Positions 2,919 through 60,600 of a stretch of DNA of 64,000 bases are shown piece after piece. The notes under the pieces were generated by a model that was not told the DNA's origin, did not search any database, and was given only the letters and a program-made list of their open reading frames with translations. How positions within the stretch are numbered: the first letter of the stretch is position 1; each line of letters opens with the position of its first letter. Position numbers and translations under genes: made by a program. The DNA lies in the NCBI GenBank assembly GCA_946699065.1, contig CAMPDV010001332.1, forward strand, positions 60,868 to 124,867, written 5' to 3'. This DNA is from Loxodes magnus. Its lineage: Eukaryota; Ciliophora; Karyorelictea; Loxodida; Loxodidae.

Positions 2919-2924
2919 TGAATG

Positions 2925-5090: not shown

Positions 5091-5123
5091 AAGTTATAAA
5101 GTTAATAAACGTTAGAAAGGTTT

Positions 5124-5998
5124 TCAATTAGAACTCGAACTGACTTTTTTACATCCTATCTACTTTTGGATGGGTTTATCAAACTGGTTTTCCTTCCAGC
5201 TTTGCAACTAGGGACATTTGTTGCCTTGAGGGTAGTTTCATGGGTTTTAAACCTTAACTTTATATACATAACCATTCGGGTTACAATACATTTTGTTTAA
5301 CTTTGCTTTTTAAAATCTTGTTTTAGCCCTTTACTCTGCTAGGTAGTTCTGCTGAAGCCAATACTATTTCTTCAATATTAATGTTGAACCTACCTAAACT
5401 TATTGTATTAGCGATATAAATATCAAATGCTACCACATTGAAAGCATTTCCTTACATGTTTTTCCTTGGTCTAACTCGGAAAATTTTAGCTGAAAGGTTA
5501 AACTGATTCTATTTCCATCGTAACTGGCCTAACAGCTAATAGAGGATCATTTAAAATTTTTGCCATAGAAACTGCTTTTAAAATATCGTCAATCTTACCA
5601 TTGGTCGTAGTCTATAGACGGGACTGCTCTTATGTCATGTTCCACATTGCTTGCAGTTCTCGTTCAGAGTTAACAGCTCTCTAATCAGATAGTTAAGCTT
5701 CCGTTTCAGCTTACACCCTGAGCTATTAAATTTCCTATTTCAATTTCGCAACCTCTTTGACTGAGCTTAAAGCCAATTACTTATAGTCTATTTCTTCCTC
5801 CTATTCTATTAGGACTTTTTCAACAGGGATTTATCTGACTTAAGTTTCCTGTTATTATCTAGGTTGCTCTTGAATGACTGGAGTTCTAAGTGAGTGCTAG
5901 ATTCTTTTGCCAGATTGAACTGATGCAGTTTGCTAGCCACTCTTCTGCTCCTCTTTACTCGCAGGAAAAAAACCTTTTCTGAAACCAAATTACAACAT
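5124..5998 (-). pseudogene. Gag/ORF1-like retroposon protein G1 (one frameshift)
   Basis: Read from the ATG at 5998 downwards. The N-terminus MLQFGFRKGFFP carries the family's GF-x-P patch. An E/Q-rich coiled-coil-like region follows, then an MEIE patch, then a degenerate zinc knuckle at about residue 185 in which the His and last Cys are Tyr. About 30 codons later the family C-terminal box appears in another frame (MYCNPNGYVYKVKV), so one frameshift separates it from the knuckle. That frame ends at a TGA at 5124-5126. It lies between flank A and module C. The degenerate knuckle and the shift suggest a decayed copy. Confidence 0.6.
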
Positions 5999-6001
5999 CT
6001 T

Positions 6002-9000
6002 TTTTTTTAAAATTATAATATATTTAGTTTAATTTTAATTAATTCTCTTAATTTTAAGTATTGTTTTTTAAAACTTTAATTAAGTTTTTTATTGCTTTTT
6101 TAATAAGAATATTTAGTATATCTTTATAATTGTCTTCAATTATTAAAAACTTTTTATTTTTTAAATAAATCCTTAAACATTTCCTTTAAATTAATAACAG
6201 TAGTATTATGAACTTTAAACAATACTCATTTAACTATATTTTTATATCACTTTAAAAAATTAGTTTAGTTTATTAAATCGAATGGCATATGCTATATTTT
6301 ATTTAGCATGCATATGTATCTTTAAAGAAGTTTTATTATTTGCTAATAAAATATTTAATTAATAGCATTAAATCTATAAATTTAAATTATTTATTAATAA
6401 TAAATATAAATCTTTATTTTTTAAATTAATTAATTTTGAAATATTTAAAATTTATATTATAAATTATTTATCATTTTATTTTAGATTTAGACTATTTAAT
6501 AGAGTTTTTACTACTTTATTCTTTTTTCTTAATGTAATTTTTTATTATTTGTATTTCGTTTATTTGAAACCATTAATTTAAAAGCATAGTCCCATTTTTA
6601 CTTATATAATAAATTAATCTCCTATGTCTTAATTTATATTTTTATTTCTTTTAGTAATTTAGCCTTAACTGTTTTTTCTATGAAGATTTATTTATTTCTC
6701 TTAATTTTAACTAAACTATTTCATAAATCTATAAAACATTTTACTCTTATTTTAGGAATTACTTATCTGAAATAATTGTCAATTACATTTTTACTAATTT
6801 AAATCTACTTTCTTCTTATTTATTAATTATATCAATTTGAAAAAATATCCTATTTATTGCTTTCTACTAAAATAAATTATTTTAAAACTTTCTTAAACAA
6901 AACTAAATTTATTAATAAAATATCAATATTTTTCAATTAAATTATTGCATCTAATTCTTCAAAAAAAGAGCAATTAAATAAGATAAAAATAATATTTATT
7001 AATACTTGATTTTAAGATAAATTTTCGAAATATATAATAAAATTATGATTATTAAAATAGTATTAAAATATTTCAGTTTTAAATAATTATTTATATTAAA
7101 TTAAGAAATAATATTAAATACAATTATTTTATAAGATAGTTTTAAAATCTTATTAATTCTATAATATTTATAAAATATTATACAGAAACTATAAAAAGAA
7201 CTTCTAAATTTAAATTATTTAAACTTAATTAATAGATATTTTTATATATACAAATAAAAAAGTTGAATTAAGTTTAAAAGGATATAAGTTATGAAGTTTA
7301 GTCAAATTAATTCAATAAATAAATAAATAATTAATTGTATAATTTAAATTACTCAAATATTAAAATTTTAGCTATAAAACAATTTTTAAATTATATTATT
7401 ATACTTCATATTTATACTTTCTTAGCTAAATCTAAGATATTTTATATGCCAGATAATAAATTTTATAACTTGTATAAATTTTAGTATAATTTTAGTATAA
7501 TTTTAGAAATTCATCGAAATTACAATTTTAATTTTTTTGCTTATGCTAGATATAGAAATAAAAAGTTTAAAATCTAAAAATAGTATTGATGATCAAATAA
7601 ACTAGTACCTTAAATAAGCAAAATGTTATAAAAATAGATTATAAGATGATAAAAGTAAAACTTTAACTAATAATCTTTAAAAATTAAGTAAGATTTAAAT
7701 AAATCCTTTTAAAGTAAAAATAATAAAAAATAATAAAGTTTAATATTAGATTTAGCGTTTAAATATAATTTATTATTTATTATTTTTTAAAAAGATACTA
7801 ATGTTTAAAAAGATAAAATTATTGCTTAGATTTTTTTATTTATTACTTTAATTTAAAAGCTAAAAATTAATCTAAATAGTTTATAAAAATTTATAGGAGA
7901 AAAAATAAAAAACAATATCTCTTTATAAAAATAAAAAAGTTAATAAAATTATAAAATTAGAAAGTTTAAAAATTAAAAAAAATATATCGATATATTTTAG
8001 AAAATAAAAGAAACCTTAAAAATAAAAATTATATAGAAGATCATTCTATTTTTTAAAATTAAGCTGGCAAAAAACTCTCAAATTAGTTTGATAAAATGAA
8101 GAAATTAATTTAAAAGTATGAAGAAATAATTAATAATTAAAAATAAGATCAGAAAACTAATGAACAACTTCGAAGATTAAGATAATGATTTATTCAACTT
8201 TGTTTTTAGCTAATCTAAAATAACTTAGTAACAGAATAGTAACTATATAAAAAATCCTAGTCAATATTTAAAATAGAATAAAACAATATTATAAAAAATA
8301 AAAATGAAAAAGTTAAATTAGTTTATCAAAAATAAAAGAAAATTAGATGACTGACTTAAATTTACAAAAGACAATAAAATTACTAAAAAAATTAAAGAAA
8401 AAGATAAAAGAAAATAGATCAAAAGCTGTAAGTACTGCAATTCAATTTACCACATCATATTAAAATGTTGAGCCTGAAAAAACTTAAGATAAGAGAACAA
8501 AAAAGAACATGAAGGATGATGAATAAACATAAGATCACTGAAAGTTGAATTTATAAATAAAAAATTTTATCAAGAACGGTATATTATTGATATTAGTATC
8601 CTGCCAAATATTTAAAAAAATTATGATACTCATCCAAGTAAAATAAATGGCATAGTTGTCAAGTTGAAAGTCCAGGTGAAACTAAAACTTCAACTTTGAG
8701 TATATTATTATTATTACTATTTAATTTTAAAATAAAATTAGATTTATTCTTTAGTTTAAAATTTCTTCCAGTTTAAATTATTTTAGTTTTTTTCTTTTTC
8801 ATAAATTATTAAGAAATTTTATGTCTTTAAGAAATTAAATTTAATTACTTAGTTATAAATTTATACCAAATTAAATTTATGTTTATTAAAATTATCCACC
8901 AAGTATTTTTCTAAATGATAGTAATTTAATTAAATTAAACTATTTTTAAATATTTTTATCAATTTTACATAAGTTGTCTTAAAATTGTAATTTTCCTGAA

Positions 9001-11340: not shown

Positions 11341-11773
11341 TTAAATCAATTATATATATAATAAATTTTACTTATATGCTTTTAATCTAAAATCTATATT
11401 TTGTAGTTAAAATTTATTAAAAATATATAGATTGTTCAATTTATTGATACTTTATTTAGTTTGCTTTTAAATATTCTAAATTAATAATATAATCAAATAT
11501 TATATCCTGAAAATATAATTAATAACGAAATTCCATTTCAATTCTTAAATTATTGACATAATTCATTTACTTTTATATATTTTTAGTGATTAAATGAATT
11601 ATCTACAAATATTAATTTTGTCTTTAATATCAGCTGAATAATACTTACTTATTTTTAATAATTTTTAATAATTAGTTTTTATATAAGTTATCAATTAACT
11701 CTTTATAATTTCTATTTAATATTAGTTATATATTAAATAGATAAAAAGAGAATATAAGCTAATAGATTATAAT

Positions 11774-12611
11774 TTAATAATAATAATAATAATGTAAACT
11801 AAGAATTTTAAATCTTTTGCTTTCCCTGGGCTTTCAACCAGGTACATACTGACATTTTTTTATACGTGGATGTATACCACGACCTTTTGTGTATGTGGAT
11901 GGTTACCACAGAGAATTTCCATCTTTTCTAACGATCGATTTTTACCTATATACTCCAGTCTATGTTATAAATAGTTGATTAAAGGCCCTTCATGTTCTCT
12001 ATTCTTCTTTTAGTTTAAGTTATTTTCATTCTAGGCATTGTCGTAGTAAGTGAAATTTAGAGTTTCAATACCAGCAAGGTTTATACTATTTCTAAGATTA
12101 TTTAAGAAAAACTTTTTTTTCTAGTTTATCAATTCTCTTCAACAAAGTTAAGTCGACAATTTCATATTGTTTTTCTTGATCTTACTTTTAAGGAGATAAG
12201 TTTTCTATAATCATATTTTATTCTTGCTTGAAGTTCGATTGAGATTATTCATAGAGTTATTATTCAGTGACTAGGTTATTCTTGATTAGTTGACGTCTAA
12301 GTATCGTTAATTCATTATTTTGATCATCTATGTTATTCATGAGTTCTCTAATTTTTTCCCCTTGATTAAAGATTGTTTCTTCATACCTTGAAATGAGAGC
12401 TTTCATAGATTCAAGTTAAATTTGAATATTTGGATTGCTTTCGGTTTTAGATTCGTTCATCTCTACTAATCCAACCATTATTTTTCCTTCAGATGAAGAA
12501 CTTGATTTTTAATCTTATTGCTGCTTTTTCATGAGTTCCTTCATCGCTTTCTTCTTAGCATTTTTTAACTAACTCCTTGAAAGGCGAACAGAATGCTCCA
12601 TTTTTTTCTAT
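11774..12611 (-). mobile_element. ORF1-only retroposon G2 with 11-bp target duplication
   Basis: The insertion splits the conserved RING-kelch leader. TAGATTATAAT is found at both ends (11763-11773 and 12612-12622), while uninterrupted copies carry a single equivalent site. The 3' end on the coding strand has an (ATT)n tail just inside the duplication. A target-site duplication plus a simple-repeat tail indicates target-primed reverse transcription. Only one ORF is present and no reverse transcriptase, so it would depend on an enzyme supplied elsewhere. Confidence 0.65.
11834..12601 (-). CDS. Gag/ORF1-like protein G2
   Basis: A single open frame of 255 codons from the ATG at 12601 to a TGA at 11834-11836. 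The N-terminus is basic, then comes a long E/Q/N-rich coiled-coil-like region (about 50-165). The knuckle at 176-189 reads C-WY-W-NSKF-H-LLRQ-C: the second Cys position is a TGA codon, giving Trp under this code, so the knuckle is probably defective. A C-terminal box LFITQTGVYRQ corresponds to YxTQxGKIYR of other members. Nucleic-acid binding for retroposition is inferred. The TGA could be read through; the frame stays open into the (ATT)n tail. Confidence 0.6.
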
Positions 12612-14138: not shown

Positions 14139-14144
14139 TGAATG

Positions 14145-20150: not shown

Positions 20151-20155
20151 GAATA

Positions 20156-21392: not shown

Positions 21393-21395
21393 CAC

Positions 21396-22741: not shown

Positions 22742-22822
22742 CTATCATAGTAATAGTAATAATCTAATCTAAACTGTTATATTTACACTTTTAGCTTTTA
22801 CATTTATTAACTTTATAATAAA

Positions 22823-24190: not shown

Positions 24191-24199
24191 ATGAAGTTA

Positions 24200-32436: not shown

Positions 32437-32444
32437 TGAATGAA

Positions 32445-36587: not shown

Positions 36588-36659
36588 GGGCTGCTACGGG
36601 AATTGAACCCGTGACCTCTCGCACCCGAAGCGAGAATCATACTACTAGACCAAGCAGCC
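36588..36659 (-). tRNA. tRNA-Pro (anticodon CGG)
   Basis: A 72-nt tRNA on the minus strand. The acceptor stem GGCTGCT/AGCAGCC is followed by discriminator C, as in eukaryotic tRNA-Pro. The anticodon stem CTCGC/GCGAG encloses loop TTCGGGT, anticodon CGG, reading CCG. The T arm ACGGG-TTCAATT-CCCGT contains a good B box (GGTTCAATTCC). No CCA is encoded and no intron is seen. It faces away from an almost identical tRNA-Pro(UGG) gene ~1.1 kb downstream; the two are on opposite strands. Confidence 0.95.
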
Positions 36660-37773: not shown

Positions 37774-37845
37774 GGCTGCTTGGTCTAGTGGTATGATTCT
37801 CGCTTTGGGTGCGAGAGGTCACGGGTTCAATTCCCGTAGCAGCCC
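37774..37845 (+). tRNA. tRNA-Pro (anticodon UGG)
   Basis: 72 nt on the plus strand, acceptor GGCTGCT/AGCAGCC plus discriminator C. The anticodon loop TTTGGGT gives anticodon TGG, reading CCA (and other CCN by wobble). It is almost identical to the CGG gene at 36588-36659, differing at the wobble base (T against C) and at one D-loop base. The B box GGTTCAATTCC and a T5 terminator are present. The pair is probably an inverted duplication. Confidence 0.95.
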
Positions 37846-38526: not shown

Positions 38527-39324
38527 ATGGAATCTTAAAATCTTGTTCCCGGCTTTTTCTTGAGCAAAGAAAATAAAAAAGCTCTAGAAAAAAAACCAGT
38601 CATAAAAAAAGTATCAAGAGTCTTCAACTCCCCACTTACAAAACTAATAAAGAACCTAATAACTATAATAAAAATCTCCTAAAGTAATAAAAAGAAAGGA
38701 ATCTAATATAATAACAGGAAAAGAGCTTCCATCAAAGATAATTAAAAAGGAAATCAATATTTAACAGTTAGTATTTAAAATATCCAATCTCTAGGAAGAG
38801 ATTAAAGTCTTAAGTAAGAAAATTAAGAACTAAGAAACTTATTATCGCTTGGATAAGATAACTTAGAGATTAGAATTATTAACTAAGAAAGGGAACTCCA
38901 AAGCATATTGTAACATTTAAACTGAACATAGATAAGAAACAGCAAGGCTTGGAAATATCGTATAAAAACAAGAGTTGGAGTTTATTAAGCAAAAGAATAT
39001 TAGCACAAACATAACTAATTAGACAAATTAGATGGAGATAGAATAAAAAGAGGTTATAAATCGAAAACCAATCAGATAAGTAAAGAAGAAATGCTACTAC
39101 TGTAAGAGTAAGTGACATTTGTACAAGAATTGCTAAAAATTTTAAGAATTTCAAGAAAAAATTTTGGCATAAAGAATAAGAAAAATACTAGAGGCTCTAT
39201 TGCAACTAGCATGGAGATATTTGCAGAAGAAAATGATGTGAAGTACCTTTTGAAATAATAAGAACAAGAAATCAAAGAAACTGAGAAGACCTTAGTGAAG
39301 ATAATTTCATTAGATCAAGAATGA
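38527..39324 (+). pseudogene. Gag/ORF1-like protein G3 (two compensating frameshifts)
   Basis: The ATG at 38527 opens MESQNLVPGFFLSKE with the family GFF patch. Near 38680-38700 the meaningful frame moves by +1 into a coiled-coil-like region, an MEIE patch (39032) and a perfect knuckle C-YY-C-KSKW-H-LYKN-C (39092-39133), in which TGA supplies the Trp before His. After the knuckle the frame returns to that of the ATG and ends in a doubled stop TGATGA (39322-39327), as in the intact member G4. Two opposite shifts could be decay, short introns or frameshifting; I favour decay. A T-rich tail with ATT runs follows near 39455. Confidence 0.6.
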
Positions 39325-43849: not shown

Positions 43850-44270
43850 ATTTTATTTTTGATTTAGTAAAATTAAAATTTTAATAAAGTAAGACAAATA
43901 GTTAAAGAAAGTATAAAATTTATTAAACTAAAAGTTTAAAAAAATCACAGAAATTTTAAAAAAAAATTTTGAGGAGCTAATAAAATAATAATTTATATGA
44001 TATTTCAAAAGTAAAACACTAAAAGTGAAAATGAAGAAAAAATTTAATTTTTATAAAATTTTTTCTCTTATAAATAATAAATTATAATTTTATCTTTAAT
44101 CATATTTTTAAATATAAAAACAAAAAAAATTTTAATTAAAAATTAAAAAAAATTAACAATAAATTGGACTTTATTTCCGAAGCTTGAAACAATTATTAAT
44201 AAATACTTTTATAATCAAAGGTTAAAAAATTTTATAGTTGTAAAAAAAAAAAGTTAAAGTTAAAAAGCTT
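43850..44270. other. AT-rich spacer
   Basis: Extremely A+T-rich sequence between the candidate ORF and the G6 element; nothing recognised. Confidence 0.4.
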
Positions 44271-44370
44271 TGTTAAAGCCTTAGTAGTCAGCCATCTGAC
44301 CTATTCTATCAGCTTGTCTCTATTAGTTTGTTTTGAATTCCTACTAGACTTAGTTAGGCAGTGTAACACT

Positions 44371-45106
44371 TCATTAGTGCACCATCCTTTAATATTCGGA
44401 ATAGTTTTGGTCTTGCACTTAGCGTTCCTAATTATTTCTCCAAGGATTAAGATTTGAATTAAAGATTTTTTTTCTATAAATTTTTCCGCTTTATGTTGGA
44501 TATATCCTAAATAGTTTTCTAAAATTATCTTATTTATTCTTTCTTTAAATTTCGCTTAGTTAGTAGCAGTATTTTCATTGGTGTTATTTATTACACACGT
44601 AGCATTTTATTCTTCTTTTAAACTATTATTCCTGTAACACTTACTTAATTTAAATTTACTACTTATTTTAAATAAACGTTTACTGTTTATTTTAATTTGA
44701 GGCTTCATTTTCTATTTCCATAGGATCTGATTAATTCTGTTAAATCGAAAAGGGCGTAACCTGAATTTATTATTAAATTTAAAGAATTCTTTGTTCCATT
44801 TTGTTTTCTATTTCTTATGATTATTAATATTGTTTCTCAAGTAAAGACGTTATAGTTTTTCTAATTTTTCTACTTTATCAGTGAGGTATCTATTTTTAAA
44901 CATAAACTCTTTTAATGACTTAGATAATATTTCTATTTGAGTTTTTGTCGGAAGTTTTTTAGTTCTGGATTTCCAAGTGGTTAATGTTCGTTATATCAAT
45001 CATATTTCTCACTTTCACTCATTGTAATTATTTCGCTTTTTTATTTTTTAGAGAATTTTCCTGTTTAAATATTTTGTTCAAAGTTCTGTTATTTCTTAGA
45101 AGCCAT
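44371..45106 (-). pseudogene. Gag/ORF1-like protein G6 (N-terminal frameshifts)
   Basis: The ATG at 45106 (MASKKQQN) starts a frame lost after ~65 codons. The downstream frame carries a PMEIE patch, a knuckle C-YV-C-NKQ-H-QWKY-C (one residue short between Cys and His) starting at 44604, then the best example of the C-terminal box, IYPTQSGKIYRKKI. It ends at a TGA (44371-44373) 77 codons after the first knuckle Cys. The box matches LYVTQEGKIYRLKI of intact G4, which fixes the frame. It lies against module C copy 3 and on its other side reaches an A-rich spacer. Probably a decayed copy. Confidence 0.65.
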
Positions 45107-45111
45107 TTTAT

Positions 45112-48100
45112 ATAAGTAAGATATAAATAAATCCTTTTAAAGTAAAAATAATAAAAAATAATTAAGTTTAATATTAGATTTAGCGTTTAAATCTAATTTA
45201 TTATTTATTATTTTTTAAAAAGATACTATATGTTTAAAAAGATAAAATAATTGCTTAGATTTTTTTATTTATTACTTTAATTTAAAAGCTAAAAATTAAT
45301 CTAAATAGTTTATAAAAATTTATAGGAGAAAAAATAAAAACAATATCTCTTTATAAAAATAAAAAAGTTAATAAAATTATAAAATTAGAAAGTTTAAAAA
45401 TTAAAAAAAATATATCGATATATTTTAGAAAATAAAAGAAACCTTAAAAATTAAAATTATATAGAAGATCATTCTATTTTTAAAAATTAAGCTGATCAAA
45501 AACTCTCAAATTAGTTGATAAAATGAAGAAATTAATTTAAAAGTATGAAGAAACAATTAATAATTAAAAATAAGATCAGAAAACTAATGAACAACTTCGA
45601 AGATTAAGATAATGATTTATTAAACTTTGTTTTTAGCTAATCTAAAATAACTTAGTAACAGAATATGTAACTATATAAAAAATCCTAGTCAATATTTAAA
45701 ATAGAATAAAACAATATTATAGAAAATAAAAATGAAAAAGTTAAATTAGTTTATCAAAAATAAAAGAAAATGAGATGACTGAACTTAAATTCACAAAAGA
45801 CAATAAAATTACTAAAAAAATTTAAGAAAAAGATAAAAGAAAATAGATCAAAAGCTGTAACTACTGCAATTCAATTTACCACATCATATTAAAATGTTGA
45901 GCCTGAGAAAACTAAAGATAAGAGAGCAACAAAGAACATGAAGGATGATGAATAAACATAAGATCACTGAAATTTGAATTTATAAATAAAAAATTTTATC
46001 AAGAACGGTATATTATTGATATTTGTATCCTGCCAAATATTAAAAAAAATTATGATACTCATCCAAGTAAAATAAATGGCATAGTTGTCAAGTTGAAAGT
46101 CCAGGTGAAACTAAAACTTCAACTTTGAGTATATTATTATTATTACTATTTAATTTTAAAATAAAATTAGATTTATTCTTTAGTTTAAAATTTATTCCAG
46201 TTTAAATTATTTTAGTTTTTTCTTTTTCATAAATTATTAAGAAATTTTATGTCTTTAAGAAATTAAATTTAATTACTTAGTTATAAATTTATACCAAATT
46301 AAATTTATGTTTATTAAAATTATCCACTAAGTATTTTTCTAAATGATAGTAATTTAATTAATTTAAACTATTTTTAAATATTTTTATCAATTTTACATAA
46401 GCTGTTTTAAAATTGTAATTTTCCTGAAGCTCTTCAGCTAATTTATCTATTCCTTAAAGCATATTAAGTTTAGTTAATTTTTATATTATATAAAATATAG
46501 TTATTAGTTTAATGCTTCTATTTTACTTGTTTTATAATAGATCTTATTTTCTAATTTTTTAATCTTTGCTGCAAATTCATAGAATTTAATTGTTTTTTTT
46601 ACATATTTTGATCTATAAAAATAATGATTTAACTTTAAATATTTTAAACTAATTGCAACGTAATTTTTGGTTTAAATAAGATTTTTCTTATATTTACTAT
46701 TTATAAAAAAGCAAATTTAAATGCTTAAAACATAATTTTTATTCTTTTTAATATTAAATAATGCATCTTTTTAATTACTTTACTTTTAACTTATTTTTAA
46801 ATACATTTTTCATTCTAATTTTAACTATATTTTCAAACATAAGAAAATAAATGCTTTTTATCAAACTTAAGATAAAATTCAAATTTTTTAAATACTTGCA
46901 AGATTTTTAATTAAATTTTAGAAAGAAAATAATTATAAATTTGCTTTTGTAAAAGAAAAAATTAATGAAAACTAAATAATTTAAAAAATATTAAATGAAG
47001 AAGTTGAGATTGAGTTTCGTAAATAATTTAACACTTATCTTTTAATATTATTTATCTATATCTGCTAATTCTAGTATTTTCTCTTTTACAAATCCTTAAT
47101 AACTATTTTTTTATTATAAATTTTATTCTATTTAATTTAATAATTATAATAATATAAAATAATATAAAATATTAAAATCTAAAAATTAAAATTTAGTAAT
47201 AATATAGTAAAGATAAATTTTAAATAAAGTATAAGTAATTTAATTAAATATATGAATTGATAATTAAATGAATAGATTACACTTTAATGTTTGATATATA
47301 ATCTAAATAATAATAGACAATTATTAAATATTTGATTAAATCTATTTAAGTTTTTAAAGTATTTTAGTTGATATATCTTTAATTTCACATAAAGTAATTT
47401 TTTATTACTATTTAAGCTAAAATTTATAGTTATTAATTATATAATTTTGATAATATTTAGGTTAATATTATCTGCTTATATTATTTTTACTTATTATTTA
47501 TATTAGAAAAAAGGTTTATCTAGCTAGGAACTAACACAACTGTATTTGTAAAGAATTGAATTATATAATTAATAATGGTTATAAAGTAGTAAAGATAAGT
47601 ATACAATTGATAAAAAATGGGAGTTACTATTTAGTAAGCAGCATTATTAGATTAATCTATATTATTTAAGTTATTTAATAAAGATATTTAATATTTCTAT
47701 TTAAAGAAAATTGTATAATTTGATAATAAATTTAAGATTTATTATTTTAGTTTTTTAAAATATAAGTAAAATAATTAGAAAATAGTAAATTTTAATTCTA
47801 AGTATTTTTATAAATAAAGCTTTATAAAATCATTTATAAAAATATTTTAAATTTTTATTTTTACTGTCATAATATTTAAATTTTTAATTATTTAAATTAT
47901 TTATCCTTTAATTATTTAGTTTTATATTTGCTACTAATTTTAGGGAAAAAATATATCTATAAGCATAATTTTGTTTATAATAAAATCTTTAATGTTTCTT
48001 CTGTAATTTTATTAAAACTTGTTCTATTTAAATAATAGATTAAATTTAATATCTACTCTTTACTATAAGATACATTTATTTAAACTATTTATTTAAATAT

Positions 48101-48472: not shown

Positions 48473-48546
48473 CGCCTACCACTTCAATGGCGCGAAGTTA
48501 TTTAATTAATTTTTTTAAGTTAAAAAAATTTATTGCTGAAGTATTT

Positions 48547-48887
48547 AAAAAATCAAGATTCAATGATAATAGATGAACAACCCATGACTTAAGAAAAATA
48601 CTTCAAAAAAAAGTGCTACATATGTGGCAGTCAATATCATCTTTGAAGAAGATGCTAGGGAAATAAGGAAATAAGAAAAAAGATTTGAAATGAATTGACC
48701 ATGTTTTATCCTTCCTCGGATGGTTAATTATGACGTAAGAAGATAACTCCAAGACGGTTCGGAAAGCTCGGAAGTGAACTTGGGTGGAGACACCGGGGAA
48801 TCCGAGACCCTGTAAAAGGTAATACAGGGGTTATGGATCTTTTAAGGGAACACTCCATTAACCTTAAAATTTTTAATTTAATTTAAA
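48547..48887 (+). mobile_element. 5'-truncated retroposon G7 with 15-bp target duplication
   Basis: A 341-bp insertion flanked by perfect ATTGCTGAAGTATTT repeats (48532-48546 and 48888-48902); undisturbed copies of the SINE-like element have this site once. Only the 3' part of a Gag-like element is present. Short 5'-truncated copies with target-site duplications are typical of LINE-type insertion. Confidence 0.8.
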
Positions 48888-48895
48888 ATTGCTGA
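48563..48895 (+). pseudogene. Gag/ORF1-like C-terminal fragment G7
   Basis: 110 codons open in one frame. In order: a PMTQE patch equivalent to PMDIE, a perfect knuckle C-YI-C-GSQY-H-LWRR-C (TGA as Trp), and a box MFYPSSDGQLWRKKIT equivalent to YxTQxGKIYRxKIT. A basic, relatively G+C-rich tail follows. The first in-frame TGA (48893-48895) lies in the duplicated target site, so the element brought no stop of its own in this frame. A hairpin formed by CCCTGTAAAAGGTAATACAGGG lies inside the frame. Confidence 0.65.
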
Positions 48896-49704
48896 AGTAT
48901 TTCACAGTGCTAGCATTCCTTGGTTAGCTTTATCTCCAATAGTCTGTGGTCGGAATTCTACACTTAGAAACGTTGGCACCTTTCATCATTAACGCTACTC
49001 GATAAATCTTCATTCTTGTATTATTTTGATTCCTATCAAGATTCTTGATCGGTTTCTTCTCCGACAAAGTACTTCCTGATATTAAAGTTTAATTCAATAT
49101 CAGTTGTAGGATTATTTTTTCCCTATTTAAAATCAATTATATATATAATAATTTTATTTATGCTCTTAATCTAAAATCCATATTTTGTAGTTAAAATTTA
49201 TTAAAATTATATAGATTGTTCTATTATTGATACTTTATTTAGTTTGCTTTTAAATATTCTAAAATGAATAATAAAATCTAATATATTATATTTTAAATTT
49301 AATTAGTAAATATATTCCATTTCAACTCTTAAATTTTTGCCATATCTTATTAGCTTATTTCTATTTTCATGATTAAATAAGTTATCTAAGGATTTTAATT
49401 TTGTCTTTAATATCAGCTGAATAATACTCACTTATTTTAATAATTTTTAATTTATCTTTTTATTAATTTATGAATAAACTCTTTATAATTTCTATTTAAT
49501 ATTAGTTATATATAAAATAGATAAAAAGAGAATATAAGGTAATAGATGATAATATTTAAAGTAAGTAATAAATTATAAATAGATTAGTTACATTAGTATT
49601 AGAGGTAATATTAATAAGCTAGTTTATCATAGTAATAGTAATAATCTAATCTAAACTGTTATATTTACACTTTTAGCTTTTACATTTATTAACTTTATAA
49701 TAAA

Positions 49705-51069
49705 ATGTAAGTCATCTACCTATGCTAATACTGCTCTTATCCTTTTAACCTAACTAACGCTATTCCTACTGTCTTACCTTGTTCTCATACTTTCTGTAGC
49801 TTATGCTTAAAGACTTAGTACTATTTATAGAATCAAATCAGCTGCTGCATTTGTTATAAGGTATTTCACTTTAGATTTTAAGATTTACCTATAAATGATG
49901 AATGGGTAGAGATATTACAATAATAATAGGAGTAGATTAATATTAGAAAGTAATGCTAATAGAAATTAAATTAAATGAAGAAGTAAATAGATTAGAAGTA
50001 AAAGAAAATAACTTAGATGTAATAAATAGTTAGCTACTAGTTTATAAATTGCATACCCTCATAACATATTAAAATGCTATCATAATAGGAACTAAAGAAT
50101 GACTAGAAATATAATGTCCATCTTTAAGCCTTAATTTCTGTCACTAAATAATACTCCTCAAATGCAATAAAATAAATAAATTAGCAGATAAAACTTAAAA
50201 TGATTGATTAAGGAAGTATTAAGCCAGATATAGAATAAATAATTGTAATTGAATAGAATATAAAGGAAAGCAAATATATTCATTTCTTTGATTGGGGTAT
50301 TTAAATTCTTTGATTATTTAATATAGAAACAGAATAAATTAAATAAGTTTAATTAAATACTTAAGTTCCTAGTTTTAGTAGAAGTATTGAATATAGAAAT
50401 AAATTATATTTAGTTGGAGGATAAATAAATAAATAAGGAATAAAAGATACTTGATAATTAGACTTCTAAGGAAATAGTAGAAAACTATCTAGTCTTAACT
50501 AAGGAAGATTTGGCATTTGGATTAGCAGCAGCTTAAGATTATATATATGTAGTAGGAGGAACTTTTGATTTAAGTAAACCTTTAAGAACAGTAGAAAAAT
50601 TAAAGTTAGGAAGTTAAAGTAAATGATAATATTGTTCATAGTTTCCTTTTGGAATAGTAAATTAGACATTAGCAGCAGATAAAATTGAATAAAATATTTA
50701 TTCGTTTGGAGGAATGAACTAAATGGATAAATTTTAAATGATATGTGAAAATATAATATATAGAACGATATATGAAATAAATATCATTTAAATCTTCCTG
50801 AAACTGTTTCATTTCCTTTAGTATTACTTGAGCCTCTAATTATAGTTGGAGGAGTAAAAAATCCAAGAAATAAAGAATACTTAAGAAAGATATATAAAAG
50901 AAGCAATCAATAATGATAATAAATAGAATTTAAACATAACTCTCTTTATTTATCAGCATTTAAAACAAGAGATAGATTTGCTTATTCTTTCATTCCTGAT
51001 AACTCTAATATTTTATTGTTGAGAGTCGATATAGTGAACTTGGGTTACAAGACCATTAGAATAGTGTGA
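49705..51069 (+). pseudogene. RING-kelch copy 5 with +1/-1 frameshifted middle
   Basis: The overall length (1365 nt) equals that of copy 1 and the RING half and first kelch Gly-Gly (codon 238) are in frame. An extra base near 50510 shifts the frame, and a missing A near 50721 restores it. The ~70 codons between, covering kelch blades 2 and 3, are read out of frame; the fourth Gly-Gly (codon 382) and the TGATGA stop (51067-51072) are in frame again. The lost blades should break the propeller, so I call it a damaged gene. Sequence error at two homopolymer-like sites is the alternative. Flank A follows. Confidence 0.75.
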
Positions 51070-51077
51070 TGAATGAA

Positions 51078-53245
51078 GTTAAATAAAATATTAATAAATT
51101 TAAAGTATTTTTTAATAATAAATATTATATTATAGTATTTTATAAGTTTTAATGATTTAGGTATAATAAGAAGTAATGATTATGTAGTAATATTTTTAGA
51201 ATGTTATATATTGTAAGTTGATTTAATGTTAGTCTGATAGTTAGACAGTGATGGTGTTGAATTGTAAGGGTTGATATAAATATATTTGATATAATTAAAT
51301 ATTGTGTAATTAGTAGAGACATATTAATATTAAGTAATGATGCACATAATGATGTGCATAATGAATTTGAAAGTATGTTTTAATTTAGTATAAAATAAAA
51401 ATATTTGAGTTTTAAAGTTGATGCTATCTACTTATGATTTAGTTATTATATTATAGTTTAAAAGAATTATTTAAATAATAAAAATTTATAAAAAAGTGAT
51501 CTAATAAACAGTTAGCTAAATTATTATCTTAAAAAGTTTATTATCTAAATAATACTAAAAATAAGCAAAAAGAATCTAATAATACATATAGATATAAATA
51601 TTTATAGCTATTATATTACTTTAATAATTAAAGGTAAAAGTAAGTTTTAGTGATAAAATAATTCTTTATTGGATTAACAAAGATTAAAGTTAGAAAATAT
51701 TTTATCTAAAACATATTAAATGTTGCTTTTGTCTAAATAGCTATTTAAATTCATTTTACTTATATCTTTTTTACTTAAGAAAAAGTAAAGACGAGTATTT
51801 AAAAAGAGCATGAACAATGAAGTTATATAAATGCTCACAAAAAAGAAAATTTATAAGTGAAAATATTATGATTACTACTATATTGAGTGCTCTAAAGTTA
51901 TATAATATATTATTAAGAAGCTTCTTTTTTAATAGATAGATAAACTTCTTGATAGTTTAATGAATTTCTTGGTGGATATTACGATAATTTAATTATAATT
52001 TAAATATCATTGATATGAAGTGTTATTAGCAATAATATTTCCTAAGCAGTATATAAAATTGTTTATAATTTCCCTAAAATAAAAGTTATTACGTGCACAT
52101 AAAGATTCTATATTGATTACAATAAAGATTAAAATTAGCTCTGTTTTATAGTTAGAAAGAAATTAGTTGATAAGAAATTTGAATATGTTGATAAACATAA
52201 ATGGTAACATTAAGCTATCTATTTATACATTAATATAAAGTAATTTTTGTTGATGCTAATTGTATTATCTGAATATGATTAGATTTTTTGATAATAATAG
52301 GTTTATTTGAATATAAAAGGAATTAAAAAATAAACTAATTTAAATTAGTTAAAATATTTAATTTCTTAATTTATATCTAATTAAATAAATTAAACCATTA
52401 TATACTCTTAAGTTTAAAACTTATATAATTATAAATTTTGGTTACAGATAAGTTTTATTTAAATTATATAATATTATTTCTATTTATAGAGTATAAATTG
52501 AAGTAAGTAAAAAGGAACAATATTATTGATATTTAAATATATTTTAAATTAGAATAAATGATTAAACTTTTAATTAAATAAATATAAAATATCAGATATT
52601 TACAACACTATATCAAATTAATTATTTTAAGTAAATATACTATTTTAACTTATATCTACTATTTTTAATCAATCCAAATAATCATATAATAATAATCAAA
52701 TTATCAAATTATAATATACTCAAATTATATCCAAATTACATATAATTCATCATTATTCAAATATATTATTACACTTAAATCAAACCATTTATTTTATACA
52801 TTTTTTCCATATCAAATAGTCATCAATTCTAAAAAACATACTAATTTCAAATATTATATCAACTCATTTTATTAATACCTCCAAATTATAATCATAGATC
52901 AAATTATAACCAAATTAATGCTTCATTATTTTAATATTAGAACCTACTTTTAAAATATCATTCTTATACATATATAAATATAGTTATTATTTTTATTTAA
53001 ATATGTATAGTTACATTTAATTTTAATAACAATACTAATTTATTTTTTACTTTAAATATTTTTAATTTATATCATCTATTTTATTTATGCTTTTACTAAT
53101 AATTTTTTAATTTAATTAGTTTATATTTATTTAAATTACAAATACAGTCATTTATATATATATTAATTAAAATTTATTCTTTTTAGTAATTTAAAATTAA
53201 ATAGTATCATTATTATGTTATTTTAGATATTTAAAGTTAATATTA
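51078..53245. repeat. Flank module A, copy 3
   Basis: Collinear with 2925-5090 and 32445-34615 with only scattered changes. No gene recognised. Confidence 0.75.
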
Positions 53246-53700: not shown

Positions 53701-53800
53701 AAATAATAAAAGTTAAAAATAGAAAAATAATAATTAAAAGTATATAATAATAATAATAATAATTAATATATAATTAAAGTGATACCACCTTTCATTAGGA
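53701..53800 (-). other. (ATT)n tail and 3' UTR of G4
   Basis: On the coding (minus) strand, ~50 nt after the doubled stop, a run of about five ATT repeats occurs (53745-53765). The same kind of tail is seen after G2 and after the module C Gag fragments. Confidence 0.55.
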
Positions 53801-53803
53801 TCA

Positions 53804-54631
53804 TCACTGATATAATGTTTATAAATGTTAAAAAAAAGTATTCTGGATATATTCTTCATAGTCTTCTTCTGTCTTATGCTTCATTATTACATATCGACTA
53901 TTACTTTTTTCTCCAGGTTTTATTATAGGGATTTGGTTAAAATCTAGTTCTTTTCCAATTATTTACTAGGATCTTAATCATATATTTTCTTCAGGACCGA
54001 TTTACTAATTTTTTACGTTTGTTATCTTAAGTCTATAAATTTTACCCTCTTGAGTAACATACAATCTGCTTAATTTATTCAGTGTTTTTTTAATTTTTTT
54101 ATTCTCTTCGTTTTGTTTATTTTAATATTTCCAGCATTGTCTTACAAAATGACCAGGTTTTCTGCAGAATCAGCATTTAGGTTTTTCCTTCATTCTATTT
54201 CTTTTTGCTGGTTGAATTGATGGCTCTATATCCATAGGATCGTTGTGAGAGAGATTTTTTAGAAACAGACTCTCAGTAATCTCAGCGAATTAGTTTAATT
54301 TTTCTTCTGTCTGCTTGATTCTCTAGTTAAATTCTAATAACTAAGGATTATTGCTGAGTTCAGTCTTGTAGTTACTATTTTCTTATCTTAGCGTGTTCAC
54401 GTTATTGATCAGGCATTAGATTTATTCTTTCAGTGAATTAAGTTGTATGGAAAGTTCGTTATTATCATTTTGCATTTTTTAGAGGTTTCCAAAAATTATT
54501 TTCTGAGGATCTAATAAATCTTAGGAAGAAGAGTGGGTTAGTTAAAGCTAAAAACGTGGTTAGAGATGATGCTTCAGGTTTTCTCTCCTACTCTGAGGAG
54601 GTGGTAAAAAACCTTTCTTGAAGCCAGCCAT
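53804..54631 (-). CDS. Gag/ORF1-like protein G4 (intact family reference)
   Basis: 275 aa in one uninterrupted frame. MAGFKKGFLPPPQ shows the N-terminal patch. Residues about 55-120 are Q/N/E/L-rich and probably coiled coil. A PMDIE patch is at 132-136. The zinc knuckle C153-WF-C156-RKPG-H161-FVRQ-C166 fits CX2CX4HX4C, with a TGA-encoded Trp154. The C-terminal box LYVTQEGKIYR is at 190-200. The frame closes with TGATGA (53806-53801). The protein is likely an RNA-binding ORF1/Gag of a non-LTR-type element (inferred from the knuckle, coiled coil and insertion features of relatives). There is no reverse transcriptase nearby. Confidence 0.75.
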
Positions 54632-54976
54632 TTTTTGTTTATATCATATATAGTTAAAGTTATTTAAAATATATAGATTATTCTATTTATTGATACTTTA
54701 TTTAGTTTGCTTTTAAATATTCTAAATTAATAATAAAATTAAATTTATTATATTTAAAATATAATTAGTAAATATATTCCATTTCAACTCTTAAATTATT
54801 GACATAATTCATTTCTTTTATATATTTTTCGTGATTAAATGAATTATCTACAAATATTAATTTAGTCTTTAATATCAGCTGAATAATACTCACTTATTTT
54901 TAATAATTTTTAATTTATATTTTTATTAAGTTATCGATAAACTCTTTATAATTTCTCTTTTATATTTTTTTATATA

Positions 54977-56034
54977 TTAAATCATTAAATCACTAAAATA
55001 ACTGTTCGCCTTCCGGTTTAATTGAAGTTTTAAATGTATAAAATCTCCTTTCCTGCATGTTCGTTCCTTATGCTCTTTTTCCTGGACTTCTCTCTTTTTA
55101 ATAGTCTGAATTAAGAATTTGTTTTTTTTTCCAGATTTTTCCCATTTCCCGATTGGAAGAATTCCGTCGCTCACCATTTCAGTTGCTAATAGTTAATATT
55201 ACTCCAAAAATTCATTCTTATTCTTTTCTATTGGGAACATTTTCCATAGATGTCAAGTGCTGTTGCAAATGTAACATCTTTTCCTTGCTCTAGGAAATTT
55301 CTTTTCTTGTTTTTCTATTTCCATTGGAATTCCTTAAGAAGGCTTCTACAGGTTTTCTTATATTAATTTGAGTCTGGAATCTAATTTTACTCGGTTTTTC
55401 TCGTCTTGCTCTTGCATTACTCAAATATCATTCTCTAAATTTTAAATTGACTCATAGACTCCGATTTTAGCTCTTCGGTCTACCATATGGACTTCGTCAT
55501 CGTCTTCATGGTTTATCAGATCCTGACTTATTGTAAACATCTCTTCCTTCTGGGAGTTTAATTTGGCTTCTAGTTTTTTTATGTTTCTAATAAGTAGATG
55601 AATCAGCTGTTTCATCTATTCAAAGTTCATTTGTTCTATTTCAATGTTGTCTAAATAAAAGGTAATAGGATCCACATTAAATTATCGTACTTTACCTTCT
55701 TCGTTTATTTTTTATTTCTTCGTTATTATTTTTATCGATTCAGTTGAGTGGTTTTTTTTTTTCAGTTTTCAATGGAGGCGTTGAGAGCTGTGTCAACTTT
55801 TCTGTTCTGAATTTTTTGTCTCAGTTCCTGCTTGTCCTTTGAAGGAAGAAATCCGCTTTATTTTAATTTGTAGGATTTAGTATTTTTTATTAGTTCTTCT
55901 AATTTATTTTGTTGTTCTAGTTATTTTTATTAAGAAGAACGTTAAGTTGAAGAAGACGTGGTGAGAATATTTGCTTCTGGTTTTTCTCTCCTGTTCTGAG
56001 GAGGTGGTAAAAAAACCCTTCTTGAAGCAACCAT
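54977..56034 (-). pseudogene. Gag/ORF1-like protein G5 (frameshift at A11 run)
   Basis: The N-terminus MVASRRVFLPPPQNRRE is very close to that of G4. The frame of the ATG is lost at a run of eleven A (coding strand, about 55751-55761). Two frames meet there and an indel of a single base would join them. The downstream frame has a long coiled-coil-like part, a PMEIE patch and a damaged knuckle C-YI-C-NSTW-H-LWKM-F (last Cys is Phe) at about 55276. It stays open to the element's end, where a TAA lies at the target-site duplication. The damaged knuckle suggests decay, but slippage on the A run is possible. Confidence 0.65.
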
Positions 56035-56038
56035 TTTA
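54978..56038 (-). mobile_element. Retroposon G5 with 17-bp target duplication
   Basis: Flanked by TATATTTTTTTATATAT on both sides (54961-54977 and 56039-56055), inserted ~200 bp upstream of the RING-kelch copy 6 ATG, within the shared leader (around TTAGTTATATATAAAATAG in undisturbed copies). Unlike G2 it has no (ATT)n tail; the coding sequence runs right up to the target duplication. Confidence 0.7.
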
Positions 56039-56246
56039 TATATTTTTTTATATATAAAATAGATAAAAAGAGAATATAAGGTAATAGATGATAATATTTA
56101 AAGTAAGTAATAAATTATAAATAGATTAGTTACATTAGTATTAGAGGTAATATTAATAAGCTAGTTTATCATAGTAATAGTAATAATCTAATCTAAACTG
56201 TTATATTTACACTTTTAGCTTTTACATTTATTAACTTTATAATAAA

Positions 56247-57613
56247 ATGTAAGTCATCTACCTATGCTAATACTGCTCTTATCCTTTTAACCTAACTAAC
56301 GCTATTCCTACTGTCTTACCTTGTTCTCATACTTTCTGTAGCTTATGCTTAAAGACTTAGTACTATTTATAGAATCAAATCAGCTGCTGCATTTGTTATA
56401 AGCTATTTCACTTTAGATTTGAAGATTTACCTATAAATGATGAATGGGTAGAGATATTACAATAATAATAGGAGTAGATGAATATTTAGAAAGTAATGCC
56501 AATAGAAATTAAATTAAATGAAGAATTAAATAGATTAGAAGTAAAATAAAATTACTTAGATGCAATAAATCATTAGCTACTAGTTTATAAGTCACATACC
56601 CTCATAACATATTAAAATGCTATCATAATAGGAACTAAAGAATTACTAGAAATATAAATTCTATCTATAATCCTTAATTTTTGTCACTAAATAATTCTCC
56701 TCAAATGCAATCAAATAAATATATTAGCAGATAAAACTTAAAATGATTGATTAGAGAAACATTAAGCCTAGCATAAAATAAATAACTGTAACTGAGTAGA
56801 ATATAAAGGAAAGCAAATATATTCATTTCTTTGATTGGGGTATTTAAATTCTTTGATTATTTAATATAGAAACAGAATAAATTAAATAAGTTTAATTAAA
56901 TACTTAAGTTCCTAGTTTTAGTAGAAGTATTGAATATAGAAATAAATTATATTTAATTGGAGGATAAATAAATAAACAAGGAGTATAAGATACTTGATAA
57001 TTTGACTTTTAAGGAAATAGTAGAAAACTATCTAGTCTTAACTAAGGAAGATCTTTATTTGGAATAGCAGCAGCTTAAGATTATATATATGTAGTAGGAG
57101 GAACTTTTGATTTAAGTAAACCTTTAAGAACAGTAGAAAAATTAAAGTTAGGAAGTTAAAGTAAATGATAATATTGTTCATAGTTTCCTTTTTGGAATAG
57201 TAAATTAGACATTAGCAGCAGATAAAATTGAATAAAATATTTATTCGTTTGGAGGAATGAACTAAAATGGATAAATTTTAAATGATATGTGAAAATATAA
57301 TATATAGAACGATATATGAAATAAATATCATTTAAATCTTCCTGAAACTGTTTCATTTCCTTTAGTATTACTTGAGCCTCTAATTATAGTTGGAGGAGTA
57401 AAAAATCCAAGAAATAAAGAATACTTAAGAAAGATATATAAAAGAAGCAATCAATAATGATAATAAATAGAATTTAAACATAATTCTTATAATTTAACAG
57501 CATTTAAAACAAGAGATAGATTTACTTATACTTTTATTCCTGATAAACCTAACCTTTTATTGTTGAGAGTTGACGTAGTAAACTTGGGTTACAAGACCAT
57601 AAGAATAGTGTGA
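56247..57613 (+). pseudogene. RING-kelch copy 6 (two +1 frameshifts)
   Basis: The RING finger is intact from the ATG, but an extra T near 56485 (about codon 80) moves the rest to another frame. A second extra T near 57191 moves it again before the third Gly-Gly pair. The length to the TGATGA (57611-57616) is 1367 nt, not a multiple of three, in agreement. Only a RING fragment plus missense sequence would be made. Kelch residues are still readable in the shifted frames, so the loss is recent. Retroposon G5 sits ~200 bp upstream. Flank B follows, as for copy 2. Confidence 0.85.
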
Positions 57614-57619
57614 TGAATG

Positions 57620-60600
57620 AAGTTAAATAAAATATAATTAATTAAAATATTTTAAAATAATAAATATTATATTATAGTATTTTATAAGTTTTAAGCTATA
57701 ACTATAAATGAAAGATGATTTAGTTTTGGTATAATAAGAAGTAATTATTATGTAGTTATATTTTATTGCTAACAAATGCATAGTATCTACTCCTAATCAA
57801 TATGTCTTTCTGAGAGATCAGCTCTAAAAAATATTAATTGCGTTCTTAGTCTATAAATTAATTTTTATTCTTTTATTAATTCTTTATTTGTTGTTATATA
57901 AGTATCTTTTTTAAATTTAGTCTCATTTTTATATTGTCTATAAATTATTTCGGCTGTTTTCATATCTTATATTCTCTATATTGTTTCCTTGAAAAATTTT
58001 TTTTGCATTTTTTTTAGATTTCTTTAGTATAATTGTTTATGTTAAGATCTTTTATTTATTCATTGTTTATTTCATAGTATTTTTCAATTTTTTTAATACT
58101 TTTTTTATATTTTGAGTTCTATTTTTAATTCTGTTTGAAAAGTTATTAGAATTTTGTATCTTATCTACTTTTTTCTTTTTCTTGATCATTTCTGAATTAA
58201 TCTTATAACTTTTTGTAGAATTTTAAAAATCTTTATGCTGTTGAATCTTCAAATTTACATCAGTTTAAATCTATATACTATATTTATTTAAATGATGCTT
58301 GTGGAATTTTCAAGTATTTTCTTAGGATTTATCTTTGTGCTATTTAGATTTTATTTTTTCATTTTGTTATTCCTAATTGAATACTATATGGGATTAATTC
58401 CTAGCAGTATTCTAATTTTGGCATTATAAATAATCTGAATAAGTTCTTAAACAACTTTCACCATATAAATAAAAGTATCTTAAGTCTGAGAAAAATTGTA
58501 TAAAAAAGGATAGAGATAAAGATGCTAAATATTTCCTACTATTTGCAAAATTCTTATTTTTAAAACTTCTTATAGTCTATGATGTAATCATAAGAACCTT
58601 TATCCTAAGTATTAAGAATTACCAAAAATTCTGTCTAGAAACTTCTCGCTTTAATGTTTTGAGATTGCTTTAGTCTATAATTATCTTAAAATAAAAGCTT
58701 TCCTAATAATATAAGTGTCATAGGAAGAAGCAGATCTTCATTATTACAAAAAATACAGCAAATAGTAGTTTGTAAGGTAAAAAGGATTTTAACCAACGGA
58801 GAAAAAAGTTAATTTATTAATGTTTGAACCATTTTTTAATTTAGCAGAGGTTCTCCTAAGTTATTTCAGCAAACTATGCTTTTCAAATAATCAAACTTTT
58901 CTTTAAGTTGTAAGATTTTGGAATGGTAAGCAGCTCTCTTGTTAAACAAAACGTAGATAGAATAAGAAAATAATAGAGCTATCTAATAAATTACGTATGA
59001 AAGAATAAGTAACTTAAATTATTAATCAGTTAAACTAGTGTGTAATAAAACTTTACTAGATTCTTAAAGTTTCAATCCCATAAATCAAAATAAAATAAAA
59101 AAACATTGTTTATCTCTTTACTAAGCCTTATTATTAAAAATTATGATAAATTCTTTATCTAGATATGGTTAAGCTTTTTAAAATTAACAGCTAAATCTAG
59201 TTAAGCAAATTGAGTTTTGCTTGATAAATAGCAGGAATTCTATCTCTTAATCTTTTGATTAGAAGGAAAATATTTAAAGAATAATAAATTTCTTGGTAGA
59301 ATCTAAAGACTAAAGATTGAATATATTGAAAAATGATTACTTAGTTAGATAACTTAGTTAAAAAACCCTATTAAACATCTAGAAGCTAACTTAATAATAA
59401 AAGCTTCTCATTGATAAATAATAGATTAATCAAGAATATTGTATTAAACTTAGATTTGTACCTACTTTATCAAATATAAGCTATTTAAAACTTAAACTCA
59501 GATAATTTTTACCTGCTCAAGTTACAAACTTATAAAGAAAAAGAAAAAATTCCAAGAGAAGAATAAAGAAAACATTGAGTGCGAATAATAAACTTTGAAG
59601 TAGAAGGATAAGATAATGAGATTCAATTAATAAATATCTTTATTAATTAAGAAATGTAATCTGAAAACCGGCAGGGGATTTAAAGATGTATTTAACTTAA
59701 AATATATAATGAAGCTTAAGCCTATAAGAGATATTTTCAGAATTTGAAAGAAGATTGATTAAATCAGAACTTTATTACATCGCAACTATGTTGACATCGA
59801 GGCCAGAATTAAATTTGAAATTTTCTTAAAAATTCAAAAAATACAGAAGAGATTGTATGCCATACAGACATTGAATTAGAGAATAAGAAAGAAAAATACA
59901 TAAATAGAGTTGTTTTAAATTTTAGACAGTTCAGAGAAGCGGTATTTTTCCAAAATAGATGGAGGTAAAATTTAATAAAAGACAATTTGCTGATGAAGTT
60001 ATACCTAAGAACTTTATTGATTATATTGATATAATTTTTGATAAGGTTCATAAATATTTTAGTTCTAATATAACTAACTTTAAGTGTAAAATTTATAAGT
60101 TTAATACTATCTTATAGAATTATTATCTAATTATTAAGTTCTATTTATTTATTATTTTACTTTATTTTAAATATTTTCCTAAATTTACCCTCAAACTCTT
60201 GATTAAAAGGATTGCTGATTATTTTATAAAAAGTAAAAATTAAATTTTATAAAGAATAGGTTTAAACAATTAGTATAAGATAACTGAAAAATAAACACTA
60301 AATAAAATAAATATCTTCTATTAGATAAACTTTAGTCTATTATTATTTAGATACCTAATATTAATCAGTTCTTATTAATTAGCTTTTAGATAGTTACTAG
60401 TAAATATCATGTTTCTTTATATTAACATCAGAAATACTTAGAGATATAAGTTTTATTTTAGATATTTTCTAATATTAAATAAGATTATTTGGCTTTAGTA
60501 GCGGATTTACTTAAAGATTCTTCGCCTGTATCTATAAATATAGAATACCTGATTGCTTTAGATAGTATTAGATTAGTTATCTTCTTAATTTTATTTATAT

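Follow-up and report, generated by a model that had tools for sequence, protein, structure and literature searches.

The Gag-coding units that we describe from a 64,000-nucleotide stretch of Loxodes magnus DNA (the window, C1332:60868-124867) are probably non-autonomous non-LTR retroposons of this karyorelict ciliate that are mobilised in trans by LINEs, and one of them, g54, appears to have mosaic ends. The units follow a plan of ~0.8–1.1 kb in which an ATG stands no more than a few bases from the start and is followed by one Gag-like ORF, a hairpin and an A/T-rich repeat tail; the Gag-like protein is laid out as a coiled coil, a CCHC knuckle and a C-terminal box. As judged from sequence, what makes them unusual is that a Gag gene not found in the sampled LINEs is enclosed by a mosaic of ends. 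The question that this raises is why an element would keep a Gag gene but no polymerase, and the presence of several such families, one with the ends of two LINEs, makes testable both a cis action of Gag on its own RNA and the choice of a LINE by the hairpin. Gag-only families could also explain part of the many unclassified repeats of L. magnus, for which the consulted parts of PMC11441545 describe a MAC assembly of 706 Mbp, translation table 27, thousands of RVT_1 copies and interspersed repeats that are mostly unclassified. Our genome searches covered 705,730,643 bases in 7,843 contigs.

Gag-coding units in the window

The original prediction of about ten loci with related proteins is borne out by ten named coiled-coil/zinc-knuckle loci, mostly decayed (g5, g8, g12, g27, g39, g44, g45, g48, g54 and g55; Table 1). 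Within the window, phmmer paired g12 with g8 (1e-14), g39 with g48 (3e-7), g44 with g48 (1e-6) and g54 with g44 (2e-5), with weaker pairs such as g5-g48 (0.008) and g54-g39 (1.6); six queries against 20 order-2 Markov windows gave seven chance hits below 0.01, one below 0.001 and none below 1e-4, and the relatedness therefore beats chance. Patterns for the knuckle, a loosened box and PM[DE]xE, all built from the window's own copies, matched 6, 4 and 3 times in the window, respectively, and 0 times in the 20 Markov windows.

The signature of these proteins is, on our reading of the sequences, looser than first stated, and part of it is the start of a LINE ORF1. All copies had been said to share five parts in order, namely a GF-[LF]-P patch, a coiled coil, PM[DE]xE, a knuckle and a YxTQxGKIYRxKI box; only g54 shows all five by reading (its coiled coil was called by eye), and its GFLP is a frameshift. 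The patch was a misreading, as 11 of the 12 fully printed g54-family ORFs, which were picked by protein score, carry M(A/S)G(F/C)KKG(F/L)FTTSSEQERK, thus FFTTSSEQERK or LFTTSS, with L052 then reading EQERKLE. The "FLPPP" string arises from a local frameshift, since FLPPPQSRREN occurs only in L015, which is the window copy itself, through compensated indels; neither g12 nor g44 has the GF patch. The box does exist, but it can be made out clearly in no more than four window copies (g54, g44, g48 and g12), being out of frame in g5 and not seen in g55 or g39. Knuckle residues are lost in g5 and g55, one C is replaced by W in g12, and the g44 knuckle is CX2CX3HX4C. Among the window copies, a frame that opens at the 5′ ATG and runs through to the end is retained only by g12 and, via compensated indels, by g54.

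Table 1. Features of the window; positions count from its first nucleotide
Feature	Position	Strand	Details
g54 retroposon	53753..54644	-	~892-bp unit; ATG at 54631; in-context TGA stop at 53806-53804
g54 ORF	53804..54631	-	275 aa; LINE-like N-terminus (locally frameshifted), coiled coil, PMDIE, knuckle, box
g54 ORF parts	PMDIE 54224-54238; knuckle 54134-54175; box 54023-54061	-	
g54 3′ hairpin	53778..53808	-	AGUGAU...AUCACU, then (TTA)n; similar to LINE-b 3′ hairpin
g54 5′ end	54526..54662	-	resembles LINE-a 5′ end; 83% over 141 columns to L010:1623-1762
g55 retroposon	54978..56038	-	1,061 bp with several frameshifts; contains PMEIE and a degenerate knuckle
g55 TSD	54961..54977 and 56039-56055		17 bp; both copies identical
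g12 retroposon	11774..12608	-	835 bp; ATG at 12601; hairpin CCUGG...CCAGG; (TTA)n tail
g12 TSD	11760..11773 and 12609-12622		14 bp (13/14 identical); flanks TAATAGATTATAAT/TATTAGATTATAAT
g12 empty sites (four)	1389-1402, 30910-30923, 49540-49553, 56082-56095		
g48 retroposon copy	48547..48888	+	342 bp; knuckle and box present
g48 TSD	48533..48546 and 48889-48902		14 bp; both copies identical; empty site 11101-11114
g44 retroposon	44228..45110	-	~0.9 kb; box YPTQSGKIYRKK
g5 gag copy	5097..6000 (approximate limits)	-	ATG 5998; degenerate knuckle; box in another frame
g39 gag copy	38527..39200 (approximate limits)	+	knuckle CYYCKSKWHLYKNC; frame broken
g8, old g12-like copy	8105..8905	+	in duplicated host unit C; also about 27045-27619, 45514-46311
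RING-Kelch gene region, six copies	1400-3100, 12600-14300, 22743-24279, 30900-32560, 49520-51200, 56048-57764	+	
tRNA-Pro genes (CGG, TGG)	36588-36659 / 37774-37845	- / +	opposite orientation, ~1.1 kb apart

The limits of g54 are approximately where DNA homology to copies in unrelated flanks stops, and alignments of such copies span 881–920 columns filled by the 275-aa ORF; L017, L018 and partly L036 have the window's flanks in common with g54, so that homology there runs on. The window copy is among the thirty loci found via the g54 protein, as are several segmental duplicates. Genome-wide, the g54 3′ hairpin occurs 329 times (at most 2 mismatches), the g12 hairpin has 414 exact matches and the g44 3′ end, taken as 24 nt, has 2,504 (at most 1 mismatch), each match being a 3′ end that does not imply a verified element; the reversed patterns of the three 3′ ends gave 0 matches each across the genome. 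The 10,285 g54 candidates of a first look are no copy number, the whole-count pattern search giving 329. Twelve g54 copies picked by their hairpin, a sampling in which 3′ loss could not be seen, comprised nine of full length and three that lack the 5′ part. Loss of the 5′ part with the 3′ end kept is also the state of g48, which is without the 5′ part of the ORF and begins just before PMTQE. Beyond the window, g44 has a 94.7% identical copy at L009:2572-3470, and g55 a 72% identical one at L014:427-1408.

The window consists of arrayed, duplicated host units carrying RING-Kelch genes (called by Pfam in the first two copies and by DNA identity in the other four), into which gag units have been inserted in both orientations; empty sites survive because the duplicated units are alike. 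A precise insertion with a target-site duplication (TSD) and an empty site was found for g12, g48 and g55, all of them internal. The best TSD candidates for g54, g44 and g5 were no better than the AT-rich background and were rejected. No direct or inverted repeats of at least 20 nt were detected at the ends of g54, g12, g55 or g44, so these units have no LTR. The absence of a reverse transcriptase (RT) beside any copy, as first proposed, holds where tested: a six-frame Pfam scan of 3.0–22.6 kb and 34.6–44.6 kb on both strands (E up to 0.05) detected none, the remainder of the window, which for the most part repeats the scanned regions, having been scanned in part, and the 275-aa ORF of g54 gave no RT match. 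Together, TSDs with empty sites, A/T-repeat tails, sharply bounded dispersed copies of ~0.9 kb and units in which no RT was found support the proposal of a Gag-only retroposon.

Two other origins share some of these properties. Retrocopies (processed pseudogenes) of a host CCHC gene would also present a single ORF, TSDs and no RT, yet the tails consist of (TTA)n or another A/T repeat instead of poly(A), the ends of g54 are common to LINEs, and the families number 329, 414 and 2,504 3′ ends; we consider this origin, already disfavoured, very improbable. Still less credible is that the units are Gag remnants of LTR retrotransposons or a provirus. Weak PDB similarities of coil and knuckle in open g54-family ORFs, to a Copia VLP protein (E 0.02) and retroviral nucleocapsid knuckles (E 0.19–0.5), could be read in that way, alongside a Mediator subunit (0.11) and RBBP6 (0.33); however, terminal repeats are absent, as is RT in the scanned stretches, the TSDs are 14–17 bp, copies stop at the same points, and the 3′ hairpin with its repeat tail is LINE-like. 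In Pfam, the same ORFs gave a sub-threshold zf-CCHC match (E 0.0014, 19.1 bits versus 20.8) and coiled-coil-like noise. The box matched no family in Pfam or PDB, and a search of viral contigs with the window g54 protein recovered no relative.

The two ends of g54 and the LINEs

A search for autonomous partners with the same 3′ end had been suggested as a check; LINE-b is the likely partner of g54, to judge by the resemblance of the two 3′ ends, but none was found for g12, g44, g48 or g55. The 3′ end of g54 against LINE-b (L011) gave a local score of 53, compared with 21.2 ± 3.2 for 1,000 dinucleotide shuffles, none of which was as good; because the LINE-b end in L011 was first spotted by its likeness to g54 within ~3 kb, this shuffle count is post hoc and overstates the case. 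LINE-a and LINE-c were rejected as owners of this end, since 144 and 226 of 1,000 shuffles, respectively, did as well. With three LINE families and six gag copies, the test comprises 18 uncorrected comparisons, after which the next-best pairs are unconvincing (g5/LINE-b, 8 of 1,000 shuffles as good; g48/LINE-a, 35; g55/LINE-b, 41); against LINE-a, -b and -c, the 3′ ends of g44, g12, g48 and g55 show nothing beyond chance (35–841 of 1,000).

The hairpins themselves are CGUGGUGAUCC..GGUGGUACCACG in LINE-b and AGUGAUGAUCC..GGUGGUAUCACU in g54, and all six outer stem pairs compared form in both, two of them differing on both sides and thus compensated. The LINE-b hairpin occurs 103 times in the genome. 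In 9 of 9 LINE-b-type RVT_1 hits, which are all those that match profile positions 1–204 among the 150 hits scored, it lies 1,464–1,471 bp downstream of the RT match, a fixed distance that provides support independent of the post hoc shuffle test. The putative LINE-b 3′ terminus is read from a single copy, L011; EN (3.5e-12) and RT (3e-33) lie in different frames in this copy, which is thus broken. Five further stretches downstream of RT hits, searched for partners of g12, g44, g48 and g55, yielded the LINE-a end in four cases and no end in L090. A fourth family, LINE-d, has a FADDL-type RT (L013 minus strand, and L071) and hairpins like those of LINE-a, -b and -c were not seen in it; its 3′ end in L013 was rejected as a partner of g12, no hairpin being visible by eye. 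Elsewhere, in C20:2028-7877 and C5131:5395-26349, RT matches repeat every 2,532 bp (some 2,501–2,504 bp), and a piece of LINE RT seems to have turned into a tandem array.

At its other end g54 resembles a different family. LINE-a is a 5.5-kb LINE in which, at L010, EN (1.3e-12) and RT (2.5e-34) share one frame, and the 5′ end of g54 matches it there (Table 1) and at two other loci (81% over 135 columns in L009, 75% over 110 in L014). The LINE-a ORF1 in L010, which is broken near the knuckle, starts MVSFKKGFYTTSSEQERKPE. Residues 1–40 from an open g54-family ORF scored 118 against the first 60 of this ORF1 (shuffles 22.7 ± 4.2, 0 of 300 as good), versus 66 for the protein past residue 40 (shuffles 56.1 ± 9.5, 49 of 300 as good). 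When six window gag proteins were compared by phmmer with six LINE loci at an E cut-off of 0.05, only g54 residues 5–30 matched LINE proteins (L009 and L010), the other strong matches at these loci being separate gag copies beside the LINEs. The N-terminus thus matches LINE-a and the body does not, which identifies the GF-[LF]-P patch as a LINE ORF1 start that had been partly misread. As to whether the protein is a known retrotransposon ORF1, the likeness holds for the first 40 residues and the accompanying DNA but stops at the body, which, as far as can be told, would not come from the ORF1s of LINE-a or LINE-b.

These data bear directly on a strict half-LINE origin, in which the units would be internal deletion derivatives of LINEs that have this Gag as their ORF1 and whose parent went unsampled. 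This account overlaps our own, and we consider it unlikely. It draws on the ORF1 start and 5′ end common to LINE-a and g54, on the slightly high score of the g54 body against one LINE-b frame (65 versus 50.1 ± 7.1, 3 of 100 shuffles as good) among six frames of the LINE-a and LINE-b ORF1 regions, and on HAL1 of mammals, which is described in the consulted portion of PMC5753468 as a non-autonomous LINE relative that encodes only ORF1p and arose several times. Among the sampled LINE families, however, derivation of the ORF from a partner's ORF1 is seen for the first 40 residues of g54 and no further, no window gag query reaches E 0.05 against LINE-a, -b or -c proteins outside g54 residues 5–30, and the 3′ end of g54 resembles LINE-b, not LINE-a, so that one deletion is not enough for g54.

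Mobilisation in trans by LINEs, the reading we prefer, would proceed as follows. Transcription would begin from the LINE-like 5′ end, which in g54 may be a LINE promoter or leader gained by template switching or recombination, and Gag would be translated from the ATG next to it. The protein might then coat its own RNA, forming an RNP through knuckle and coiled coil, and the ORF2 protein of LINE-b would bind the hairpin of g54 RNA, which would be inserted by target-primed reverse transcription (TPRT) into an A/T-rich target. Recognition of a 3′ tail stem-loop by the LINE's own ORF2 protein is described for a zebrafish LINE in the consulted part of PMC4176376.

Insertion behind older elements looks enriched. 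Among 3,731 exact LINE-a 3′ ends, 129 are followed within 30 nt by AAATGG, versus 34 by the opposite-strand CCATTT, counts in which element starts are presumed and segmental duplicates occur on both sides; in four cases, direct reading showed gag units immediately after the tail of a LINE or of another gag unit and oriented the same way (L009:2572-3470; L012, minus strand, after a LINE-c tail; L029; the L016 group). We therefore entertain, tentatively and as somewhat less than an even prospect, a guild of Gag-coding LINE parasites in Loxodes whose members swap 5′ modules, Gag bodies and 3′ hairpins, where each family provides its own protein for packaging RNA and hijacks the LINE RT that its hairpin imitates, and where newcomers often land directly behind older elements.

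Possible selection on the Gag-like protein

The box had been taken to be under constraint; for the protein, constraint is suggested between families, by an uneven synonymous excess, but is not seen among copies of one family. Within the g54 family, the 12 hairpin-picked copies gave N/S of 2.33 against 2.47 expected (p 0.83), hence no purifying selection, and 11 of the 12 carry indels, which together indicate that inserted copies decay. Between families, synonymous and non-synonymous single-change codons numbered 23 and 12 for the g54 family versus g44, 34 and 23 for g12 versus L013, 12 and 12 for g44 versus g48, 8 and 9 for the g54 family versus g48, 22 and 28 for g44 versus the L012 gag, and 18 and 27 for the g54 family versus the L012 gag, each in the best-scoring frame pair of alignments chosen by protein score and without a formal dN/dS test. 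For g12 versus L013, N was above S in seven of nine frame pairs, the other two being the best-scoring pairs and the ones that read g12 in its own frame; all nine frame pairs of g55 versus L014 had N above S. Two estimates from copies chosen by protein score, N/S of 50 copies (0.85 of expectation, p 0.24) and pairwise N/S of 35 of them (1.80 versus 3.1), are biased by that choice and were set aside. The pattern suggests that source elements need the protein and inserted copies may do without it.

The same results can be turned towards passive, SINE-like parasites whose RNA ends do the work and whose ORF is a passenger. Neutral drift within the family with indels in 11 of 12 copies, a 3′ hairpin that alone could explain mobilisation, and the unevenness of the between-family excess would all suit such elements; against them, the knuckle and the box both reappear across families whose identity is 21–25% over the whole alignment and 34–40% in local ones, and synonymous changes are in excess for the g54 family versus g44 and for g12 versus L013. 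We regard passengers as rather unlikely. The broken frame of the LINE-b copy, the post hoc recognition of its end and the uneven selection signal between families nevertheless temper our confidence in LINE mobilisation and add a little to that in the passive account.

Related systems and genomic setting

HAL1 and HeT-A are known examples of elements that keep Gag without a polymerase. The conceptual likeness to HAL1 drawn in the original prediction stands insofar as a gag unit encodes an ORF1p-like protein only, with no RT; it fails in that HAL1 is an L1 derivative, whereas in g54 the N-terminus and not the body matches a sampled LINE ORF1, and the two ends match two different LINE families. 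HeT-A of Drosophila telomeres is similarly an abundant Gag-coding non-LTR element without RT, but it is telomeric and forms head-to-tail arrays at chromosome ends, whereas g12, g48 and g55 are internal with TSDs, and the gag units here carry a hairpin and repeat tail. LINE-tailed SINEs, in the consulted portion of PMC3747384, are non-autonomous RNAs with the 3′ end of a partner LINE, and the homology of the g54 3′ end to LINE-b of the same genome is of this kind, the other window copies showing it weakly or not at all; the 3′ stem-loop likewise recalls stringent-type LINEs such as zebrafish ZfL2, in which it is recognised by the LINE protein (PMC4176376, same part). Gag units differ from LINE-tailed SINEs in that they have a protein-coding ORF and begin at an ATG, and an Rfam scan of the window for a SINE-type head returned only the two tRNA-Pro genes, outside gag units. 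A literature search by titles and abstract openings returned nothing on Gag-only elements in ciliates, and the consulted parts of PMC11441545 make no mention of them; LINE-a and LINE-b are probably of the same kind as the families published there for L. magnus.

The window has a GC content of ~20%. In-frame TGA stands at W positions of gag knuckles (C-TGA-FC; x-TGA-HL), which fits table 27, and also at W positions of the host-gene Kelch repeats (read by eye); genuine coding sequence is readable here only if TAA and TAG stand for Q and TGA for W. A random sample of 10 x 5 kb of the genome contained two LINE-d pieces and no gag copy at E < 1e-3, which indicates that the window is richer than average. 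Two of the RING-Kelch units lie 18.6 kb apart. One copy of host unit E has a very AT-rich segment of 520 bp (6743-7262) that is absent from the other (26319); it has no clear TSD and could reflect a deletion in the other copy. One minus-strand frame of 12600-22588 gave a weak Plasmodium_HRP match in Pfam, which fell below the cut-off (E 2.6e-7) and probably reflects low complexity. Finally, positions 20890-21216 hold a 9-bp tandem repeat (CTTAATTAG) in 36 copies with 99% matches.
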